Made by a program: the position numbers and the translations under genes
Notes under the pieces: model-generated
Database searches by the model: none
Told to the model about the DNA's origin: nothing
The model's input: the letters and a program-made list of their open reading frames with translations, nothing else
In this document: positions 40,437-50,444 of the stretch, piece by piece
Layout of the letters: every line of letters begins with the position of its first letter
Numbering within the stretch: position 1 is the first letter of the stretch
Source of the DNA: Aminithiophilus ramosus
GTDB taxonomy: Bacteria; Synergistota; Synergistia; Synergistales; Aminithiophilaceae
Direction of reading: 5' to 3'
NCBI RefSeq assembly: GCF_018069705.1
Contig: NZ_CP072943.1
Location: 1 to 64,000 of the forward strand
Length of the DNA stretch: 64,000 nt

Positions 40437-41291
40437 CTAAAAAAGAGTCTCCAGGGCCTTGCCCGTGTCGTCGAGGTTTTCCGAGGCCTTGCAGAGCCTG
40501 GCGATGAGCTCCTGGAGCTTGGCCGTGTGAACCTGCCGTTCCTGACCCATGCGGCCGATCTGCTGGAGTGGCTCGGCCATGGCCGGAAGGGTCTGGCCGA
40601 AGGAGGAGAGGACCGATCCGATGGTCCGGGCCGACTGGTCCGTGTCCTCGGCCAGCTCCTTCACCTCTCCGGCCACGACGGCGAACCCCCGTCCCGCCTC
40701 TCCGGCCCGGGCCGCCTCGATGGCGGCGTTGAGGCCCAGCATCTTCGTCTGACGGGCGATGCCCTGGATGGAGTGGACGATCTCGTCCATCTTGGCCGCC
40801 TTGGCGCTCAGCTCCTCCATCTGGGCCACGAGAGGCGTGAAGGTCGTCCGGACCTGCTCGTTTCCCTTCATGAGCGAGTCGGCCAGAGCCGTCAGCGGCT
40901 CGACGAGACCGTCGATCTCCTTGCGCAGGTTCCCCAGGCTGCGGATCTGCCCCTCGATGACCTGGCGGCATTGCTCCTCCCGGGCGATGATCTCGTAGAT
41001 GAAGCGGCAGTCGGCCGACGTCAGAAGGCCCACGTTGTCGGGCTTCCATCGGCGCAGTTTTTCCGTCACCTCGGCGACGCCCGTCACCTCCAGGAGAAGG
41101 TCCATAGGCTGCTGCAGAAGGCGGTCCATGTCCTGGGTGGTGAAGAGGCGGTGCTGCTTGGCCAGCAGGACGGCGGGCGCGTCGCTGTTCCTGTCCATGA
41201 CGCCGGTGATCTCCAGCCCGAGAGCGATGAAATGCCTCAGAAGCGTTGCGGCTCCTTTGCCCCCTCCGACGAAGGCGATCCGGAAAGCCAT
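40437..41291 (-). CDS. Soluble chemoreceptor-like protein with N-terminal Rossmann domain
   Basis: A 284-residue fusion. Residues 1-100 start [20 protein letters not shown] and contain ITGVMDRN and [11 protein letters not shown], the pattern of a dinucleotide-binding Rossmann domain as in aspartate or homoserine dehydrogenases. A short helix pair then leads to a chemoreceptor signalling tip, [20 protein letters not shown]. There is no membrane segment and no HAMP. It could report NAD(P) or a metabolite state to CheA/CheW (inference). Strong purine-rich ribosome site upstream. Confidence 0.75.
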
Positions 41292-41414
41292 CGAGAACCC
41301 CCCTTAAGGAATGGTGAACCTACCGGTTCGAGCTTGGAACGACTCAGAAGTAGTGTACGTTCTTTTTCCCTTTCGGCCAAGCCGCTCCCCACTTCCCGGC
41401 GATCGGGCCGATGC

Positions 41415-41431: not shown

Positions 41432-42950
41432 TGTCAAGGGACACTAAAAATGTCATCTAAAAAGAGGGTCTGAGGGACAATGAAAGTGTCGCTTTCGAGG
41501 GGCTGAAATCGCCCCCGTCAACAGCCCGCCTTGGCTTTCCTCCGCGGCGGAGGTCCTTCTAGGGAGGGGAACCCGTCCCTTGCTCGGAGCCGACCGCCGC
41601 GGCAGGAGGAGCGGGATTCTGTCGCCAGGGATGGTCTGCCGCCGGCTTCCTCTGCTTCTTCGTTTTGCATGGAGTGCCTGTCTTCGTCTCGATGACAGGC
41701 GGGGGAGTCGCAGGGGGCTCTTTGTCGACGGCTGCGAGATCGTAGAGCCCGTCATGGACAAGAGCCAGGAGTTTCCCGTCGAGCTTCTCGATGACCTTGA
41801 CCGCCTGTCCTCTGGCAAGAAGCAGGGGGCGTCTGCGGGGGCCTATCAGGGCGTACTGTTTTCCGTCGAGGGAAATCGTCGAGTCTCCCGAGGCCTTCCG
41901 GTCGGTCTGGCGAGTCAGGAGGAGATCGAGAGCGGGGCCGTCCGGCGGAGGGAGAAAGGCAGATGCCCCCTCTGCGGGAGGACGAGCGAACCTCGGGTTA
42001 TGGACCTCTCCCGGGTAGGCGGCGAGCAGGACGTTGGCCTCTTCGATCGTTTTCACTCCGGCCCGTCGGAAGGCGACGACGAGACGATCCTGAAGAGTTC
42101 CCCAGAGCCTTTCGATCCGCCCCTTCGCCTGGGGAGACCCTGCAGGGACATAGCGAGTTCCGAGAGCCTCCAGAGCGCGGCCGAACTGGGTTACAGGCGC
42201 CGAGTCCTCCAGCTCCTCCTTGATCGTCAGTTTTTCCGACTTGGGAGAAAGGAAGATGGTGTGGCGGTCGGCGTAAAGCTCGCGAGGCACGCCGTGGCGA
42301 TCAAGCATCTGACGGAGCACGCGGAAGTAGCCGAAGAGGCACTCATTCCTGGCCATCCACAGACCGAGGACCTCTCCTGTGGCATCGTCAATCACGCCGT
42401 GGAGAGTGCAACGCTCACCGATCTCGAACCAATCGAAAGGAGAGGCGTCCATCTGGACCAGATCGCCTCGTCGGGACCGTCGGACCCTGCGGGAACGCCG
42501 CTTCGGGGCCCGGTGGCGATGAACGAGGGACAGGTTCTCCGCGCGAAGGAAACGGGCGATGCTCTTGGCGCTCAGCACGAGATCATGCTCTTCGGCAAGG
42601 AGTTCGGCCATGTGCTGACAGCTCGTATCCCTGTAAAGACCCTTGGCCAGACTGACGACGAAATCCCGTGTCTCCTGAGAGATTCTGCGCCGGGACGGTT
42701 TGCCTCGTCCCTTGTGCAGGAGCCCCTGCGCTCCTTCTTCCCGGTAGCGTCGTTTGAGCCGAAAGACCTGACGGCGGCTCAGACCGAGCCGATCGGCCAC
42801 CTCCTGAACCGTCAGGTTGCCCGCGACAGCCTCTTCCACCAACCCCAAGCGCCTTGCTTCTTTTGTCTTCATGAGTAGGTCTCTCCTGGTCGTCATAAGT
42901 GACATTTTCCCTGTCCTCTTCACGAGTGACAATACCATTGTCCGGCGACA
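41432..42950 (-). mobile_element. Insertion sequence, IS1202/ISNCY-like
   Basis: A 1,519-bp element bounded by imperfect inverted ends. The left reads TGTCAAGGGACACTAAAAAT; the right, on the other strand, reads TGTCGCCGGACAATGGTATT. Both share TGTC...GGACA...TGTCA. It is flanked by an exact 17-base duplication. One transposase gene fills it. Long duplications are known for the IS1202 group; the group name is inferred. Confidence 0.85.
41559..42872 (-). CDS. DDE transposase of the insertion sequence
   Basis: A 437-residue transposase. The N-terminal helix-turn-helix reads TVQEVADRLGLSRRQVFRLK, with a second helical DNA-binding part at SRRRISQETRDFV. The integrase-type core has DLVQMDASPFDW, ELYADRHTIF and AKGRIERLWGTLQ, which supply the D-D-E triad. 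The start at 42872 follows AGGAGAG; an ATG eight codons earlier (42896) is also possible. The frame is intact, so the element may be active. Confidence 0.9.
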   Translation of the reverse strand: MKTKEARRLGLVEEAVAGNLTVQEVADRLGLSRRQVFRLKRRYREEGAQGLLHKGRGKPSRRRISQETRDFVVSLAKGLYRDTSCQHMAELLAEEHDLVLSAKSIARFLRAENLSLVHRHRAPKRRSRRVRRSRRGDLVQMDASPFDWFEIGERCTLHGVIDDATGEVLGLWMARNECLFGYFRVLRQMLDRHGVPRELYADRHTIFLSPKSEKLTIKEELEDSAPVTQFGRALEALGTRYVPAGSPQAKGRIERLWGTLQDRLVVAFRRAGVKTIEEANVLLAAYPGEVHNPRFARPPAEGASAFLPPPDGPALDLLLTRQTDRKASGDSTISLDGKQYALIGPRRRPLLLARGQAVKVIEKLDGKLLALVHDGLYDLAAVDKEPPATPPPVIETKTGTPCKTKKQRKPAADHPWRQNPAPPAAAVGSEQGTGSPP

Positions 42951-42967
42951 GGGGCGGGACCGCAAAC
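42951..42967 (+). repeat. Target-site duplication, right
   Basis: Second copy of the 17-base duplication. It abuts the -35 box of the hydE promoter. Confidence 0.8.
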
Positions 42968-42995
42968 TTGACAAAAAAAGCACTAAATGTATCAT
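42968..42995 (+). promoter_or_regulatory. Predicted hydE promoter
   Basis: The -35 TTGACA (42968-42973), a 16-base spacer and the -10 TATCAT (42990-42995) begin at the first base after the right target duplication. Confidence 0.6.
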
Positions 42996-43083
42996 GTATG
43001 GGATTGGGCTCGTAGAGCCCCGCCGCTCCGGCGAAGGGCTTCCTGTGCGCTGTTTCGCGGGAGAGAAAGGGAGGGACCGAGCC

Positions 43084-44136
43084 TTGAAGACAGGATCTGC
43101 GGAGATCGCCCGCCTTCTGGCCCGTCCGCTCGAGGAGCTCGTCGCCGAGGCCGACAGCCTGCGTCGCCTCCGCCACGGCGACGGCGTCTGGATTCGGGGG
43201 CTGTTGGAGTTCACCAACCGCTGCACCTGCAACTGCCTCTACTGCGGCCTGCGTGCCGCCAACGGTCGTCTCGGCCGCTACAGCCTGACGGAGGAGGAGA
43301 TCCTTCTCTCCGTCAGGGCCGGTTTCGCCCGAGGTCTGGGCACCTTCGTCCTCCAGGGCGGGGAGGACCCCGACTGGACGACCGATCGCCTCTGCCGCCT
43401 CGTCGAGGCCGTCAAGGTCGAGACGGAGGGGAGGGCGGCCGTCACGCTCAGCTGCGGCATCAAAAGCCGCGGCGACTACCGTCGCCTCGCCGCCTGCGGC
43501 GCCGATCGCTACCTCCTGCGCTTCGAGACGGCCGATCCAATCCTTCACGAACGTCTCCGCGGCGGCATCAGTCTTCGTCGCCGCCTCCAGGCTCTCGACG
43601 ACCTCCGCGAAGAGGGGTTCGAGCTCGGATCGGGATTCATGGTCGGCCTTCCCGGCGAGACGGAGGCCGTTCGTGTCGCCAATCTCGAACTCTGCCGCGA
43701 TCTGGCCCTCGACATGGTCGGCATAGGACCCTTCATCGCCAATCCCGACACGCCTCTGGCCGGCGAGGCCTCGGGCACCCTGGAAGCGACGGTGCGGATG
43801 ACGGCGGCCCTGCGCCTCCTTCTGCCCGATGCCAACATCCCCGCCACGACGGCGGCCGGCTCCCTCTTCAGCCAGGGAAGAGAGGCCATGCTCGGAGCCG
43901 GGGCCAACGTCCTCATGCCCAACGTGACGCCCCTGGCCTATCGGGAACGCTATCTTCTCTATCCCGGCAAGGACACGATCACCCAGGATGGCATTCAGGA
44001 GCTGGAGGCCATCGCGGCCCACCTCGAGGAACTGGGCCGCCGCGCCGATCTCGGGAGGGGCGATTCGCCGTCGAGGACGCGCACTAATAAAAAACAAATG
44101 GATCAAAATTCAAAGAAAACAATCGAGAAAACATAA
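43084..44136 (+). CDS. hydE: [FeFe] hydrogenase maturase HydE
   Basis: A 350-residue radical-SAM enzyme that helps build the 2Fe subcluster of the H-cluster. The TTG at 43084 is chosen because AAAGGGAGGG lies 8 bases upstream. The cluster motif is CTCNCLYCGLRA (CxxxCxxC), followed by GFARGLGTFVLQGGEDP, LRFETADPILHERLRGG and GIGPFIANPDTPL, typical of HydE. The tail is A+T-rich. An insertion sequence lies directly upstream of its promoter. It is separated from hndA by 211 bases. Confidence 0.92.
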   Translation: MKTGSAEIARLLARPLEELVAEADSLRRLRHGDGVWIRGLLEFTNRCTCNCLYCGLRAANGRLGRYSLTEEEILLSVRAGFARGLGTFVLQGGEDPDWTTDRLCRLVEAVKVETEGRAAVTLSCGIKSRGDYRRLAACGADRYLLRFETADPILHERLRGGISLRRRLQALDDLREEGFELGSGFMVGLPGETEAVRVANLELCRDLALDMVGIGPFIANPDTPLAGEASGTLEATVRMTAALRLLLPDANIPATTAAGSLFSQGREAMLGAGANVLMPNVTPLAYRERYLLYPGKDTITQDGIQELEAIAAHLEELGRRADLGRGDSPSRTRTNKKQMDQNSKKTIEKT

Positions 44137-44284
44137 AAAACCAAAACAATCGCCTTCATGCATGCTCTTTACGTTGTTGGGCCTTCCTGTTACAAAAAGT
44201 TCAGGGCCGTTGTCTCGCTGCGAGAGCCCTCGGTTGTCGTGAGAAGAAAAACTGCCCGGAAGCGGTCCTTGGGGGGAAACTTTT

Positions 44285-44316
44285 TTGTGAAAGTGAATTC
44301 AAGTGTTTTATGGGAC
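44285..44316 (+). promoter_or_regulatory. Possible promoter region of the hnd operon
   Basis: An A+T-rich stretch before hndA contains TTGTGA (44285-44290) and, 17 bases on, TTATGG. TTGTGAAA resembles half of a Rex redox-repressor site, but the second half is not convincing. Confidence 0.3.
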
Positions 44317-44347
44317 TCTTTCCAAAAGGGGAAAAGGAGGCAAGGGA

Positions 44348-44830
44348 ATGACCACATGTTGCAAGACCCATCCGGGCTATGAGGAGCTGGCGGCCTTTAT
44401 CGAGGGGCTGCCCGACAAGAAGGGGGAACTCATAACGGTTCTCCACCGGGCCCAGGGGATTTTCGGCTGTCTGCCACGCGAGATTCAGGAGTACGTGGCG
44501 GAGAAGATGGAGCTCCCCCTGGCCAAGGTCTACGGCGTCGTCAAGTTCTACTCGTTCTTCCACATGCTGCCCAGGGGCAAGCATCCCATCTCGGTCTGCA
44601 TGGGAACGGCCTGTTACGTCCGCGGCGCCGAAGATGTCGTCGAGGAACTGGCCAAGCAGCTCAAGATCAAGGTGGGTGGCGTCACGGAGGATGGCAAGTT
44701 CTCCCTCGACACGCTCCGCTGCGTCGGGGCCTGCGGTCTCGCTCCCGTCGTCATCGTCGGCGAGAAGGTCTACGGCCGCGTCTCGCCCTCGCAGATCTCG
44801 GCCATCCTGGCCGAGTACGCCGAAGCCTAG
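44348..44830 (+). CDS. hndA: Hnd-type hydrogenase subunit A (NuoE-like)
   Basis: A 160-residue thioredoxin-like [2Fe-2S] protein of the NuoE family, the electron-transfer subunit (HydC/HndA) of the soluble NAD(P)-linked [FeFe] hydrogenase. The cluster cysteines are in CMGTACYVRGA and CVGACGLAP. The N-terminal helical part has IQEYVAEKMELPLAKVYGV. The ATG at 44348 follows AAGGAGG. First of the hndABCD run. A near copy serves the formate dehydrogenase at 56017. Confidence 0.93.
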   Translation: MTTCCKTHPGYEELAAFIEGLPDKKGELITVLHRAQGIFGCLPREIQEYVAEKMELPLAKVYGVVKFYSFFHMLPRGKHPISVCMGTACYVRGAEDVVEELAKQLKIKVGGVTEDGKFSLDTLRCVGACGLAPVVIVGEKVYGRVSPSQISAILAEYAEA

Positions 44831-44846
44831 GTCAGGAGGGGTCGTC

Positions 44847-45245
44847 ATGGCTAAGATCGGTTCTCTCGAAGAGCTGCGCAAGCTGAAGGAAAAGACGAAG
44901 AACGCCACGGAGCTTCGCGAGAAGGGACACGACATCGAGAAGCTCGTTCAGGTCAAAGTCAGCATGGCCACCTGCGGCATCGCCTCGGGCGCCCGGGAGA
45001 CTCTGGCCGATTTCATGAGGCTTTCCCGCGAGAAGGGCATCGAGAATATCGTCTTCACTCAGACGGGCTGCATGGGCTACTGCCACAGCGAGCCCACCGT
45101 CGAGGTGACCAAGCCCGGCGAGGATCCCATCGTCTTCGGCAACGTCAAGGGCGACAGGGTCCGGGAAATCGTCGAGAAGTACATCCTCAAGGGCGAGCTT
45201 GTGGCGGATATCATTCCCACCGCCTACAAGACCATCGACCAGTGA
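44847..45245 (+). CDS. hndB: Hnd-type hydrogenase subunit B ([2Fe-2S])
   Basis: A 132-residue thioredoxin-fold ferredoxin-like protein. It begins AKIGSLEELRKLKEKTK and carries four cluster cysteines in ATCGIASGA and TGCMGYCHSEP. It matches HndB of NADP-reducing hydrogenases. Only 16 bases separate it from hndA. Its counterpart in the formate dehydrogenase operon starts at 56620. Confidence 0.9.
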   Translation: MAKIGSLEELRKLKEKTKNATELREKGHDIEKLVQVKVSMATCGIASGARETLADFMRLSREKGIENIVFTQTGCMGYCHSEPTVEVTKPGEDPIVFGNVKGDRVREIVEKYILKGELVADIIPTAYKTIDQ

Positions 45246-45275
45246 CCGCTGTAGAAGGGGAAGGTGTCTTTCTCA

Positions 45276-47069
45276 ATGGCTGACGTCAAGATGCATATTC
45301 TCGTCTGCGGCGGGACGGGCTGTATTTCGGCCCAGAGCGACAAGATCGCCGAGAACCTCCGTCGCTGCCTGAAGGAGCAGGGCCTGGAAGAGGAAGTGAA
45401 GGTCCTCATGACGGGCTGCTTCGGCTTCTGCGAGCAGGGTCCCGTCGTCAAGGTCGCTCCCGACAATACCTTCTACGTCAAGGTCACGCCCGAAGACGCC
45501 GAGGAGATCGTCGCCGAGCACATCATCAAGGGGCGCAAGGTCGACAGGCTGCTTTTCGTCGATCCCGAGACGGCCGAGCACGTGGCCGACTCGAAGCACA
45601 TGGAGTTCTACAAGAAGCAGATGCGCATCGCCCTGCGCAACTGCGGCTTCATCGACCCCGAGAATCTGAGCGAATACGTGGCCCGCGACGGCTACCTGGC
45701 CCTGGGACAGATCCTGGAGTCCATGACGCCCCAGCAGGTCGTCGACGTCATGAAGAAGTCCGGCCTCCGCGGCCGGGGAGGCGGCGGCTTCCCGACGGGG
45801 CTCAAGTGGGAGTTCGCCTCCAAGTACCAGGACGACCAGAAGTACGTCATCTGCAACGCCGACGAGGGGGACCCCGGCGCCTTCATGGACCGCTCCATCC
45901 TCGAGGGCGACCCCCATTCCATCGTCGAGGCCATGGCCATCTGCGGCTACGCCATCGGCGCCAGCAAGGGCATGGTCTACATCCGCGCCGAATATCCCCT
46001 GGCCGTCAAGCGCCTCCGCAAGGCCATCGAGGACGCCCGCGAGGCCGGCCTCCTGGGATCGAACATCCTGGGCAGCGACTTCGCCTTCGACATCGAGATC
46101 CGCTACGGCGCCGGAGCCTTCGTCTGCGGCGAGGAGACGGGCCTCATCCACTCCATGGAGGGCGAGCGGGGCGAGCCGACGAGCAAGCCTCCCTTCCCGG
46201 CCGAGAAGGGCTTCTGGGGCAAGCCGTCGAACGTGAACAACGTCGAGACCTTCGCCAACGTCCCCGTCATCTTCCTCAAGGGCGCCGACTGGTTCGCCTC
46301 CATCGGCACGGAGAAGAGCAAGGGAACGAAGGTCTTCGCCCTGGCCGGCAAGGTCAACAACGTCGGCCTCGTCGAGGTCCCCATGGGAACGACGCTGCGC
46401 GAGGTCATCTTCGACATCGGCGGCGGCATCCGGGGCGGCAAGAAGTTCAAGGCCGTCCAGACCGGCGGTCCCTCCGGCGGCTGTCTCACCGCGAAGCATC
46501 TGGACACGCCCATCGACTTCGACAACCTCATCGCCGCCGGCTCCATGATGGGCTCGGGCGGGATGATCGTCATGGACGAGGACAACTGCATGGTCTCGGT
46601 GGCCAAGTTCTACCTGGAGTTCACCGTCGAGGAGTCCTGCGGCAAGTGCACCCCCTGCCGCGTGGGCAACAAGCGCATGCACGAGATCCTGGAGAAGATC
46701 ACCAGCGGCAAGGGAACCGAGGCCGACCTGAAGCTTCTCAAGGACCTGGCCCTGATCATCAAGGACACCTCCCTCTGCGGCCTGGGCCAGACGGCGCCCA
46801 ACCCCGTCCTCTCGACGCTGGACAACTTCCGCGACGAGTACGAGGCCCACGTGAGGGAGAAGCGCTGCCCCGCCGGGAGCTGCAAGAAGCTCATCTCCTT
46901 CGAGATCGTCGCCGACAAGTGCAAAGGCTGTACGCTCTGCGCCCGGGTCTGCCCCGCGGCGGCCATCAGCGGCAAGGTGCGGGAGCCCCACGTCATCGAC
47001 CAGGACAAGTGCGTCAAGTGCGGCGCCTGCATGACGGCCTGCAAGTTCGGCGCCATTATCAAGAAGTGA
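45276..47069 (+). CDS. hndC: Hnd-type hydrogenase subunit C (NuoF-like flavoprotein)
   Basis: A 597-residue FMN subunit that exchanges electrons with NAD(P)H and is the site of flavin-based bifurcation in related complexes. In order: a thioredoxin-like [2Fe-2S] domain (CGGTGC...GCFGFC, residues 1-120), the NuoF FMN/NAD site SGLRGRGGGGFPTGLKW and GAGAFVCGEETGL, a [4Fe-4S] motif ESCGKCTPCRVG, and a C-terminal pair of [4Fe-4S] motifs, CKGCTLCARVCP and CVKCGACMTACK. The ATG at 45276 fits the ribosome site GGGGAAGGTG. Confidence 0.95.
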   Translation: MADVKMHILVCGGTGCISAQSDKIAENLRRCLKEQGLEEEVKVLMTGCFGFCEQGPVVKVAPDNTFYVKVTPEDAEEIVAEHIIKGRKVDRLLFVDPETAEHVADSKHMEFYKKQMRIALRNCGFIDPENLSEYVARDGYLALGQILESMTPQQVVDVMKKSGLRGRGGGGFPTGLKWEFASKYQDDQKYVICNADEGDPGAFMDRSILEGDPHSIVEAMAICGYAIGASKGMVYIRAEYPLAVKRLRKAIEDAREAGLLGSNILGSDFAFDIEIRYGAGAFVCGEETGLIHSMEGERGEPTSKPPFPAEKGFWGKPSNVNNVETFANVPVIFLKGADWFASIGTEKSKGTKVFALAGKVNNVGLVEVPMGTTLREVIFDIGGGIRGGKKFKAVQTGGPSGGCLTAKHLDTPIDFDNLIAAGSMMGSGGMIVMDEDNCMVSVAKFYLEFTVEESCGKCTPCRVGNKRMHEILEKITSGKGTEADLKLLKDLALIIKDTSLCGLGQTAPNPVLSTLDNFRDEYEAHVREKRCPAGSCKKLISFEIVADKCKGCTLCARVCPAAAISGKVREPHVIDQDKCVKCGACMTACKFGAIIKK

Positions 47070-47088
47070 TTCGGGGAGGGCAGGCGAG

Positions 47089-48861
47089 ATGCAGCAGATG
47101 ATCAACCTCAACATCGACGGCAAGTACGTCAAGGTGCCCCAGGGCAGCACGATCCTCGATGCCGCCCGCAAGCTGGGCATCGATATCCCCACTCTCTGTC
47201 ACCTCAACCTCGAGGGGACTCCCATGGTGAACCAGGCCGCCTCGTGCCGCATCTGCGTCGTCGAGGTCAAGGGGCGGCGCAACCTGGCTCCGGCCTGCGC
47301 CACGCCCGTCGCCGAGGGGATGGAGGTCCACACCCACACGATCCGCGTCCTCCACGCCCGGCGGATGGTGCTGGAGCTGCTCCTCTCCGACCATCCCAAG
47401 GACTGCCTGGGCTGCGCCAAGGCGGGCAACTGCGAGCTTCAGGACCTGGCCGAGCGCTTCTGCTTCCGCGAGAACCGCTTCGAGGGGGCCGATTTCAGCC
47501 AGAGCCACTACGTCAAGGACATCTCTCCGGCTCTGATCCGCGACATGGACAAGTGCATCATGTGCCGCCGCTGCGAGACGATGTGCAACAAGGTCCAGAC
47601 CGTGGGCGCCCTCTCGGGAATCAACCGCGGCTTCAACGCCGTCGTCGCCCCCGCCTTCGAGATGCCCCTCGAGGAGTCGGTCTGCACCTTCTGCGGCCAG
47701 TGCGCCGCCGTCTGCCCCACGGGGGCCCTCGTGGAGCGCGACTACTCCTGGGACGTCATCGAGGCCCTGGCCGACCCCGACAAGGTCGTCGTCGTCCAGA
47801 CCGCCCCGGCCGTCCGGGCCGCCCTGGGCGAGGAGTTCGGCTACGAGCCGGGCACCCTCGTGACGGGCAAGATGGCCGCCGCCCTGCGGGTCCTGGGCTT
47901 CGACCACGTCTTCGACACCGACTTCGCCGCCGACCTGACCATCATGGAGGAGGCCAGCGAGTTCCTCGACAGGCTGACGCGCCACCTCCAGGGCGACACG
48001 TCGGTGCGCCTTCCCATCCTCACCTCCTGCTGCCCGGCCTGGGTCAAGTTCTTCGAGCACCAGTATCCCGACATGCTCGACGTCCCCTCGACGGCCAAGT
48101 CGCCCCAGCAGATGTTCGGCGCCATCGCCAAGAGTTACTTCGCCGAGCAGCTCGACATTCCCCGGGAGAAGATGGTCGTCGTCTCCGTCATGCCCTGCCT
48201 GGCCAAGAAGTACGAGGCCGGCCGGGATGAGTTCTCCGTCGACGGCAACCGCGACGTCGACATCTCCATCACGACCCGCGAGCTGGCCCACATGATCAGG
48301 AGGGCCAACATCGACTTCCGCGCCCTCCCCGACGAGGATTTCGACCGTCCTTTGGGCGAGTCGACGGGGGCGGCCGTCATCTTCGGCGCCACCGGCGGCG
48401 TCATCGAGGCCGCCGTCCGCTCCGCCGCCGAATGGGCCACGGGCAAGCCTCTTGAATCGGTCGACTTCACGGCTCTCCGCGGCCTCGAGGGCTGCCGTTC
48501 GGCCAAGGTCCCCGTCGGCGACCTGACCCTTCATATCGGCATCGCCCACGGCCTGGGCAACGCCCGCAAGCTCCTCGACTCGATCCGCTCCGGCGAGGTG
48601 GAGCCCTTCCACGCCATCGAGATCATGGCCTGCCCCGGCGGCTGCATCGGCGGCGGCGGCCAGCCCTACCACCACGGTCACATGGAGATCATCAAAAAGC
48701 GCATGGAGGCCATCTACCGCGAGGACGCCGGCAAGCCGATCCGCAAGTCCCACGAGAACCCCTACATCAAGAAGCTCTACGAGGAGTACCTCGGCAAGCC
48801 CTTGGGCGAGAAGTCCCATCACCTGCTCCACACCCACTACTTCAAGCGCCACAGGATCTGA
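47089..48861 (+). CDS. hndD: [FeFe] hydrogenase catalytic subunit
   Basis: A 590-residue hydrogenase. The N-terminus has a [2Fe-2S] ferredoxin fold, the His-Cys [4Fe-4S] segment HPKDCLGCAKAGNCELQ, and two ferredoxin clusters (CIMCRRCETMC and CTFCGQCAAVCP). The H-cluster signatures are complete: L1 TSCCPAWVKFFE, L2 MPCLAKKYEAGR, L3 EIMACPGGCIGGGGQP. With HndABC this predicts a group A3 bifurcating hydrogenase coupling H2 with NAD(P)H and reduced ferredoxin. A hairpin follows, then hydG. Confidence 0.97.
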   Translation: MQQMINLNIDGKYVKVPQGSTILDAARKLGIDIPTLCHLNLEGTPMVNQAASCRICVVEVKGRRNLAPACATPVAEGMEVHTHTIRVLHARRMVLELLLSDHPKDCLGCAKAGNCELQDLAERFCFRENRFEGADFSQSHYVKDISPALIRDMDKCIMCRRCETMCNKVQTVGALSGINRGFNAVVAPAFEMPLEESVCTFCGQCAAVCPTGALVERDYSWDVIEALADPDKVVVVQTAPAVRAALGEEFGYEPGTLVTGKMAAALRVLGFDHVFDTDFAADLTIMEEASEFLDRLTRHLQGDTSVRLPILTSCCPAWVKFFEHQYPDMLDVPSTAKSPQQMFGAIAKSYFAEQLDIPREKMVVVSVMPCLAKKYEAGRDEFSVDGNRDVDISITTRELAHMIRRANIDFRALPDEDFDRPLGESTGAAVIFGATGGVIEAAVRSAAEWATGKPLESVDFTALRGLEGCRSAKVPVGDLTLHIGIAHGLGNARKLLDSIRSGEVEPFHAIEIMACPGGCIGGGGQPYHHGHMEIIKKRMEAIYREDAGKPIRKSHENPYIKKLYEEYLGKPLGEKSHHLLHTHYFKRHRI

Positions 48862-48886
48862 TCCGACCGGGGTCGACTTCGCCCGA

Positions 48887-48919
48887 GTCCGGCCCCCCGC
48901 GAGGGGGGCCGGACCTTTA
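48887..48919 (+). terminator. Hairpin between hndD and hydG
   Basis: A perfect 12-bp G+C stem (48887-48898 with 48903-48914), loop GCGA, then CTTTAG. The T run is weak, so it is likely partial termination ahead of hydG. Confidence 0.6.
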
Positions 48920-48950
48920 GAGGCGACGGGATAAGGAAAGAGGCAGGGTC

Positions 48951-50444
48951 ATGACAGTCGCGACGGATATCCGGAGCTGGATCGCCAACCGCATCAAGCG
49001 GGACGAGATCACGCGCTACATGGACGGCGACCGCTGTTTCATCGACGATGGCGCCATCGAGGGGGCCCTGGAGCGGGGCAAGAACCCCGATCCCGGGCGG
49101 GTCCGGGAGATCCTGGCCAAATCCCTGGCCATCGAGACGCTGACCGTCGACGAGGCGGCCTGTCTCCTCCACGTGGAAGATCCCGACCTGTGGGAAGAGA
49201 TGAAGGCCGCCGCCGGCGAGGTCAAGCGCCGCGTCTACGACAACCGCATCGTCACCTTCGCCCCCCTCTACCTGGCCAACCTCTGCGTCAACGGCTGCGT
49301 CTACTGCGGCTTCCGCGCCGAAAACAGCGCCGAGAGGCGGCGCGTCCTCACCATGGAGGAGATCAAAGAGGAGACGCGCGTCCTGGCCGGCACGGTGGGC
49401 CACAAGCGCCTCATCGTCGTCTACGGCGAACACCCGGCCAGCGACTACGACTACATCGCCGACTCGATCCGGGCCATCTACGACGTGACGGTGCCGACGA
49501 AGAAGGGCTACGGCGCCATCCGCCGCGTCAACGTCAACGCCGCTCCCATGGAGATCGCCCATCTCAAGGTCCTTCACGACGTGGGGATCGGCACCTTCCA
49601 GGTCTTCCAGGAGACCTATCACCGCCCGACCTACGAGCGCCTCCATCCGGCGGGGACGATCAAGGGCGACTACCTCTGGCGCCTCTACGCCATGCACCGC
49701 TGTCTCGAGGCGGGCATCGACGACGTGGGCATCGGCGCCCTCTTCGGCCTTCACGACTGGCGCTACGAGGTTCTGGGGCTCCTCCAGCACGCCTGGGACC
49801 TGGAGGAGAAGTTCGGCATCGGCCCCCACACCGTCTCCTTCCCCCGCATCGAGCCGGCGACGAACACGCCCTACGCCGACAGCCCCGAGGCCGTCGTCGA
49901 CGACGACGCCTTCGCCCGCCTCGTCACGGTCCTGCGCCTGGCCATCCCCTACACGGGCATGATCCTCACGGCCCGCGAGAGAGGCGACCTGCGCCACGAG
50001 ATCCTTCCCCTGGGCTGCACCCAGGTCGACGCCTCGTCGCGCATCGGCATCGGCGCCTACGCCGACGTCGAGGAAAAGCAGAAAGGGGAGCGCCAGCAGT
50101 TCATCTTGGGCGACACGCGGAGTCTCGACGAGGTGGTGCGCCAGCTGGCCCTGGACGGCTACATCACCTCCTTCTGCACCGCCGGCTACCGCTGCGGCCG
50201 GACGGGGCAGAAGATCATGGATCTCCTTCGCAGCGGTCGCGAGGGCCATTTCTGCAAGCTCAACGCCGTCCTCACCTTCCGGGAGTGGCTCGACGACTTC
50301 GCCAGCGAAGAGACGCGCGTCGCCGGCGAGAAGGTCCTGGCCAAGGAGCTCGCCGAGATCGCCCTCCGCTTCCCCGACATGTACCCCCGTCTTCACGCCT
50401 CCTACGAAAAGGTGAGCCAAGGTGCCCGAGACGTCTATTTCTGA
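48951..50444 (+). CDS. hydG: [FeFe] hydrogenase maturase HydG (tyrosine lyase)
   Basis: A 497-residue radical-SAM enzyme that splits tyrosine to give the CO and CN ligands of the H-cluster. The radical-SAM motif is CVNGCVYCGFRAEN. The fold continues through RRVNVNAAPMEIAHLKVL and QVFQETYHRPTYERLHP. The C-terminal auxiliary cluster cysteines are in CTAGYRCGRTGQKIMD plus a later Cys. Length is slightly above usual. It overlaps the next small gene by 23 bases. Confidence 0.96.
   Translation: MTVATDIRSWIANRIKRDEITRYMDGDRCFIDDGAIEGALERGKNPDPGRVREILAKSLAIETLTVDEAACLLHVEDPDLWEEMKAAAGEVKRRVYDNRIVTFAPLYLANLCVNGCVYCGFRAENSAERRRVLTMEEIKEETRVLAGTVGHKRLIVVYGEHPASDYDYIADSIRAIYDVTVPTKKGYGAIRRVNVNAAPMEIAHLKVLHDVGIGTFQVFQETYHRPTYERLHPAGTIKGDYLWRLYAMHRCLEAGIDDVGIGALFGLHDWRYEVLGLLQHAWDLEEKFGIGPHTVSFPRIEPATNTPYADSPEAVVDDDAFARLVTVLRLAIPYTGMILTARERGDLRHEILPLGCTQVDASSRIGIGAYADVEEKQKGERQQFILGDTRSLDEVVRQLALDGYITSFCTAGYRCGRTGQKIMDLLRSGREGHFCKLNAVLTFREWLDDFASEETRVAGEKVLAKELAEIALRFPDMYPRLHASYEKVSQGARDVYF

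Follow-up and report, generated by a model that had tools for sequence, protein, structure and literature searches.

A soluble short chemoreceptor of Synergistota with a predicted Rossmann-fold input domain shared with other bacterial signalling proteins

We describe here a membrane-free chemoreceptor, encoded in a 64,000-nucleotide stretch of Aminithiophilus ramosus DNA (the window), in which a predicted Rossmann-fold domain occupies the input position and is followed by a short signalling hairpin. This architecture, as read from the sequence and from structural models, we regard as firm. On balance, and with modest confidence, we favour the reading that the protein is a soluble, dimeric, short (about 24-heptad) chemoreceptor whose Rossmann sensor has an adenine dinucleotide as its ligand (most likely NAD(H)) and signals to CheW and CheA. 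The Rossmann domain is not peculiar to this receptor, and the unnamed input module that it represents is a more interesting part of the story than the fusion itself. The features to which we refer are as follows.

40437..41291, minus strand: complete receptor coding sequence (284 aa, ATG start, stop included).
41298..41305, minus strand: Shine-Dalgarno-like AAGGGGGG, 6 nt upstream of the receptor ATG, read directly in the sequence.
41019..41291, minus strand: Rossmann-fold input domain, residues 1-91, from AlphaFold2 and Foldseek PDB matches.
41250..41267, minus strand: GGGKGA, residues 9-14, a predicted GxGxxA dinucleotide-binding loop, from conservation in 12 orthologues.
41193..41195, minus strand: D33 after strand 2, a predicted NAD-type ribose-binding acidic position, invariant in 12 orthologues.
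41079..41090, minus strand: EVTG, residues 68-71, the loop that follows strand 4, predicted to lie close to the cofactor and invariant in 12 orthologues.
40440..41018, minus strand: helix running into the MCP signalling hairpin, residues 92-284, from Pfam MCPsignal and Foldseek.
40683..40760, minus strand: conserved kinase-control tip, residues 178-203, from orthologue conservation and alignment with the Tsr tip in 1qu7.
42817..50444, plus strand: hydrogenase operon (context), with HydE-like radical SAM, NuoE/HydC-like, NuoF/HydB-like, [FeFe]-hydrogenase HydA-like and HydG-like radical SAM/BATS genes.

The receptor gene is real and lies on the minus strand, a point that the first-pass annotation of this DNA had left unstated. 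Its start and end are kept across the 12 distinct orthologue sequences in our alignment, which come from the fusion-bearing Synergistota genomes, and the same length and architecture persist among these sequences even where identity falls to about 40%. When the window gene is compared with those of two congeners, substitutions number 51/41/115 and 55/44/113 at codon positions 1/2/3, a preference for the third position that would be expected of a gene under selection. Together, the conserved architecture and the codon-position bias rule out a chance or mis-called open reading frame. The Shine-Dalgarno-like sequence upstream of the gene is a good ribosome-binding site.

The C-terminal part of the protein is readily recognized as a chemoreceptor hairpin. 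The Pfam MCPsignal family (PF00015) matches residues 147-275 with an E-value of 2.1e-29 and 103 bits, against a cut-off of 34.6, and a Foldseek search with the full model places the YfmS-CheW model and Tsr in the top ranks, with TM values of 0.48-0.60 against 1qu7. The tip pattern E..R..GE.GRGF is present between helical arms, is kept among the orthologues and aligns with the tip of Tsr. The AlphaFold2 model of the full receptor, made with the 12-sequence alignment, has a mean pLDDT of 90.3 and continues after the last strand as helix from residue 92 to 283; the details of the hairpin turn in this model are not to be trusted, because DSSP shows no break there. In Tsr numbering, the receptor tip keeps L380, N381, E385, R388 and the GRGF segment, and differs in having Arg at F373, Lys at N376 and Met at I377. 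The 86 residues that follow the tip glutamate correspond to 12.3 heptads, and a receptor of this length would fit the shortest described class, 24H. A weak methylation-like pair near residues 260-261 is the sole candidate site for CheR/CheB. A Kyte-Doolittle scan of the receptor gave no 19-residue window above 1.8 and so no transmembrane segment. The short hairpin, the conserved tip and the lack of a membrane part, which had all been proposed from the sequence letters, are thus upheld.

The host genome encodes 24 MCPs and seven CheW-domain proteins; a P1-P5 CheA and a CheA-REC protein are among the latter, and the canonical CheA is located at 2.108 Mb. Many of the membrane receptors of the host carry a QTNLLALN tip, from which the short receptors differ both in length and in tip sequence (QTK, LGLN). 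This distinction, together with the presence of two CheA types in the genome, would suit a receptor that feeds a second, CheA-REC pathway and not flagellar chemotaxis, whatever its ligand. However, none of the genomes examined has a che gene close to the receptor, and we consider a second pathway of this kind somewhat unlikely. We rejected the notion that the QTK/LGLN tip marks a dead receptor: the same change occurs in a PocR-MCP of the same genome (L095), and because it is common to the short receptors of the genome it is no sign of decay.

L095, at around 2.986 Mb, is a second soluble short receptor, in which a PocR domain is followed by the same short hairpin with a QTKLLGLN tip. It shares the QTK and LGLN elements with the window receptor and is nearly equal to it in length after the tip. 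Like a further PocR-MCP found in a relative (L046), it joins a cytoplasmic sensor to this hairpin, but has the PocR domain where our receptor has the Rossmann domain. Two other open frames of the host are unusual. At about 1.608 Mb (L093, 415-2178) a Phosphonate-bd (periplasmic-binding-type) domain lies C-terminal to an MCP hairpin; no membrane segment was detected in this protein, and both the domain order and the location are unusual for Phosphonate-bd. At about 3.017 Mb (L096, 1688-2332) a 215 aa open frame contains little beyond the MCP tip and is possibly a minimal receptor.

The N-terminal domain had been described as dinucleotide-binding-like, with structure prediction proposed as a check, and the prediction bears the description out with a high-confidence Rossmann fold. 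For the domain alone, modelled with 22 relatives, AlphaFold2 gave a pLDDT of 94.1 and a pTM of 0.84. The predicted strands, at residues 4-8, 27-32, 65-68 and 88-90, alternate with helices, and the first residues of the receptor already form strand 1, so that there is no signal peptide. Foldseek matches of the domain in the PDB (E 7e-4 to 4e-3) comprise the NAD(P) dehydrogenases L-aspartate dehydrogenase (2dc1) and acetaldehyde dehydrogenase (1nvm), Gfo/Idh/MocA enzymes, pyrroline-carboxylate reductase and a Rex-family repressor with NAD+ (3wgi), and a sequence-only search with the wide-family profile reached acylating acetaldehyde dehydrogenases (E 4e-5). There is no dedicated Pfam family for this domain. 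The receptor N-terminus gives only sub-cut-off scores with NAD_binding_3 and GFO_IDH_MocA, reaching 16.5 bits against a cut-off of 24 for the Gfo/Idh/MocA oxidoreductase family PF01408, and relatives retrieved by the domain profile pass the GFO_IDH_MocA and CoA_binding cut-offs. We can rule out that the receptor is itself a true oxidoreductase, as it has the MCP hairpin in place of a catalytic domain and its Pfam scores lie below cut-off.

A survey of this architecture in other genomes, also suggested by the first-pass annotation, found the fusion in 13 of 188 Synergistota genomes, and a one-off fusion is thereby rejected; the weak further matches in this phylum are different proteins. The fusion spans four families, including three species of the window's genus, and most Synergistota lack it. 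The Synergistota receptors group as one clade (95/94) when a tree is built from the Rossmann domain, which makes a single origin within the phylum likely. One genome of another phylum (L077) contains a divergent Rossmann-MCP that is cut by the contig end and whose MCPsignal match (E 1e-7) falls just below the cut-off. A search of plasmids gave no match, and a degenerate-pattern scan of genome contigs gave matches confined to the window's genus.

The genes at 42817..50444 appear from their sequences to encode an NADH-type [FeFe]-hydrogenase and its maturation enzymes. In two congeners (L057 and L058) the receptor gene is divergent from the HydE-like gene, which is followed by the HydC-, HydB-, HydA- and HydG-like genes. 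In the window a transposase-like open reading frame, undetected in L057 or L058, lies between the receptor and the operon (41559-43232, minus strand; a helix-turn-helix N-terminus and a transposase-like core, Pfam HTH_29). Beyond the genus, the neighbours of the receptor are instead an ATP:corrinoid adenosyltransferase (CobO), FtsZ, or a BNR-repeat protein with a MetH-like enzyme. In the last arrangement (L064-L067, family f11) the receptor gene follows the BNR-repeat gene, with an overlap in L065, and the BNR-repeat gene is itself beside a MetH-like homocysteine methyltransferase. Since the hydrogenase neighbour is genus-specific, and a transposase-like frame now intervenes, we keep the operon as a functional partner, and with it the positional link to redox metabolism, only as a hint.

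The residues of the predicted cofactor site bear on what the receptor senses. G9, G10, G11 and A14 of the loop are unchanged throughout the 12 orthologues. Of 66 members of the wide family, all have the first glycine of the loop, 64 have the second and 61 have Gly or Ala at its last position; across the family the loop after strand 4 reads [NDE]x[TS]G. In the classical specificity pattern, an acidic residue after strand 2 denotes NAD and a neutral residue with an Arg denotes NADP. Of 68 family members, 51 have Asp or Glu at this position, and the combination of GxGxx[AG] with the acidic residue reads as an NAD-type signature; by its Asp33 the receptor looks NAD-type. The other 17 members all have a neutral residue followed by Arg and fall in one phylum and one branch of the tree (94/74), so that these variants represent at least one event and not 17. 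GAF-GGDEF relatives from one phylum, in which 17 of 24 genomes have the domain, are mostly of the NADP-type variant (L100-L117). Taking the signature together with the predicted fold, nucleotide sensing by the Rossmann domain of the receptor is likely, with NAD(H) as the foremost candidate ligand. The first-pass proposal that a cytoplasmic metabolite or NAD(P) state feeds into CheA/CheW has partial support.

The main alternative at the level of the ligand is that the domain senses something else (CoA or acyl-CoA, SAM, ADP/ATP or a small metabolite) and signals by the same route to CheA. The domain is a half-size Rossmann unit in which only the adenine-end part of the fold is clearly complete, a point against the NAD(H) reading; as it lacks both a sixth strand and a catalytic domain that could cover the nicotinamide, it may hold an ADP-, CoA- or SAM-type ligand. 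The CoA_binding Pfam cut-off is exceeded by one relative, and the neighbours of the receptor in other genera are B12-linked (CobO, MetH-like) and not redox-linked. This alternative is nevertheless unlikely in our judgement, given that both the GxGxxA loop and the acidic position following strand 2 are of NAD type, that the NADP-type alternative is found elsewhere in the family, and that the nearest folds and profiles are those of NAD(P) dehydrogenases. It is quite improbable that ligand binding has been lost and that the domain serves as a dimerization or docking part (for example for a dehydrogenase) relaying a protein-protein signal: some distant members (L083, L084) have lost parts of the motif and the fusion is sparse in Synergistota, but the cofactor-loop glycines, D33 and EVTG are invariant among the 12 orthologues even though overall identity in the domain falls to about 45%.

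If the receptor is indeed a dinucleotide sensor, a simple signalling route can be envisaged. The last helix of the Rossmann domain, from residue 92, runs unbroken into the signalling hairpin, and nucleotide occupancy or redox state would alter the packing of the two Rossmann domains atop the dimer. This change would then pass down the four-helix bundle to alter, via CheW, the activity of CheA at the conserved tip, such that the cell would steer, or set another output of CheA, by its internal reducing power and not by an outside chemical. We infer the identity of the nucleotide, the geometry of the dimer, the coupling, the output and the membership of receptor arrays.

The known redox and oxygen inputs to chemotaxis use, to our knowledge, flavin or haem (Aer, AerC, HemAT). 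The energy-taxis receptors Aer and AerC, the latter also soluble (PMC13401364), likewise report internal redox state to CheA, but hold a flavin in a PAS domain, whereas our receptor uses a Rossmann domain, which presumably holds an exchangeable dinucleotide. The NAD(H)-sensing regulator Rex has a Rossmann fold with a GxGxxG/A loop, as in the receptor, but its output is DNA binding. NAD(P)-dependent dehydrogenases (1nvm, 2dc1, Gfo/Idh/MocA) are alike in their Rossmann fold and have the catalytic domain that is absent from the receptor. On the output side the best Foldseek match is YfmS of Bacillus subtilis (PDB 9a72, the YfmS-CheW integrative model), a protein that has been termed a soluble chemoreceptor (PMC7542364). 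YfmS is membrane-free, has 286 aa, nearly the length of our receptor, and a short hairpin with an MCP tip, and matches our receptor structurally in the hairpin; the Rossmann domain is seen on the receptor's side only. Because soluble chemoreceptors with cytoplasmic sensors are established by YfmS and the PocR-MCPs, the fusion adds variation to a known type of receptor. If the proposal is correct, a Rossmann receptor that reads the free dinucleotide pool would tie swimming to fermentative redox balance in anaerobes.

The earlier description had missed that the Rossmann domain is, from the sequence comparisons, a general N-terminal input module with many outputs. A profile search of 392 genomes, many of them outside Synergistota, gave matches to the domain, some of them weak, in 12 genomes from other phyla, and follow-up within three of those phyla found matches in 17 of 24, 13 of 40 and 13 of 19 genomes; several of the phylum-wide searches covered few genomes. 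Proteins from at least six other phyla carry the same domain at the N-terminus, the position that it has in all of the signalling proteins seen. Its partners in 43 proteins, which are a sample and not a census, are GGDEF (18, mostly with GAF), sigma-54 AAA+ with a Fis-type HTH (12), histidine kinase (8), HD-type phosphodiesterase (3) and V4R (3). HD-GYP is among the joined outputs, and MCP occurs outside Synergistota once, in the divergent form. The last helix of the domain, A-[RK]-[LF]-x-[WY]-x-[LIM], leads directly into a linker or output. None of the relatives examined has a catalytic domain after the Rossmann half except L130, a true oxidoreductase that marks the border to the enzyme families; being joined to signalling outputs without a catalytic domain, the Rossmann domain is best understood as an input module. 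The literature searched, with most subscription journals lying outside it, describes neither a Rossmann-MCP nor a sensor role for this domain. We therefore put forward tentatively, and with somewhat less than even confidence, the broader proposal that the domain is an unrecognized, widespread NAD(P)-sensing module with at least six kinds of output and with NAD- and NADP-type versions; in our receptor it would serve as the sensor for direct NAD(H) taxis. The shared domain may thus be an overlooked bacterial means of reading internal NAD(P) state. As the same domain precedes many outputs and lacks a Pfam family of its own, the ligand of one representative would suggest the signal for a whole set of orphan regulators in at least seven phyla. 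The V4R-type partners come from the sample tally together with the sequences, and in these proteins (L137, L140 and L141) the Rossmann domain is joined to a V4R-type domain, with a PAS domain also present in L140.
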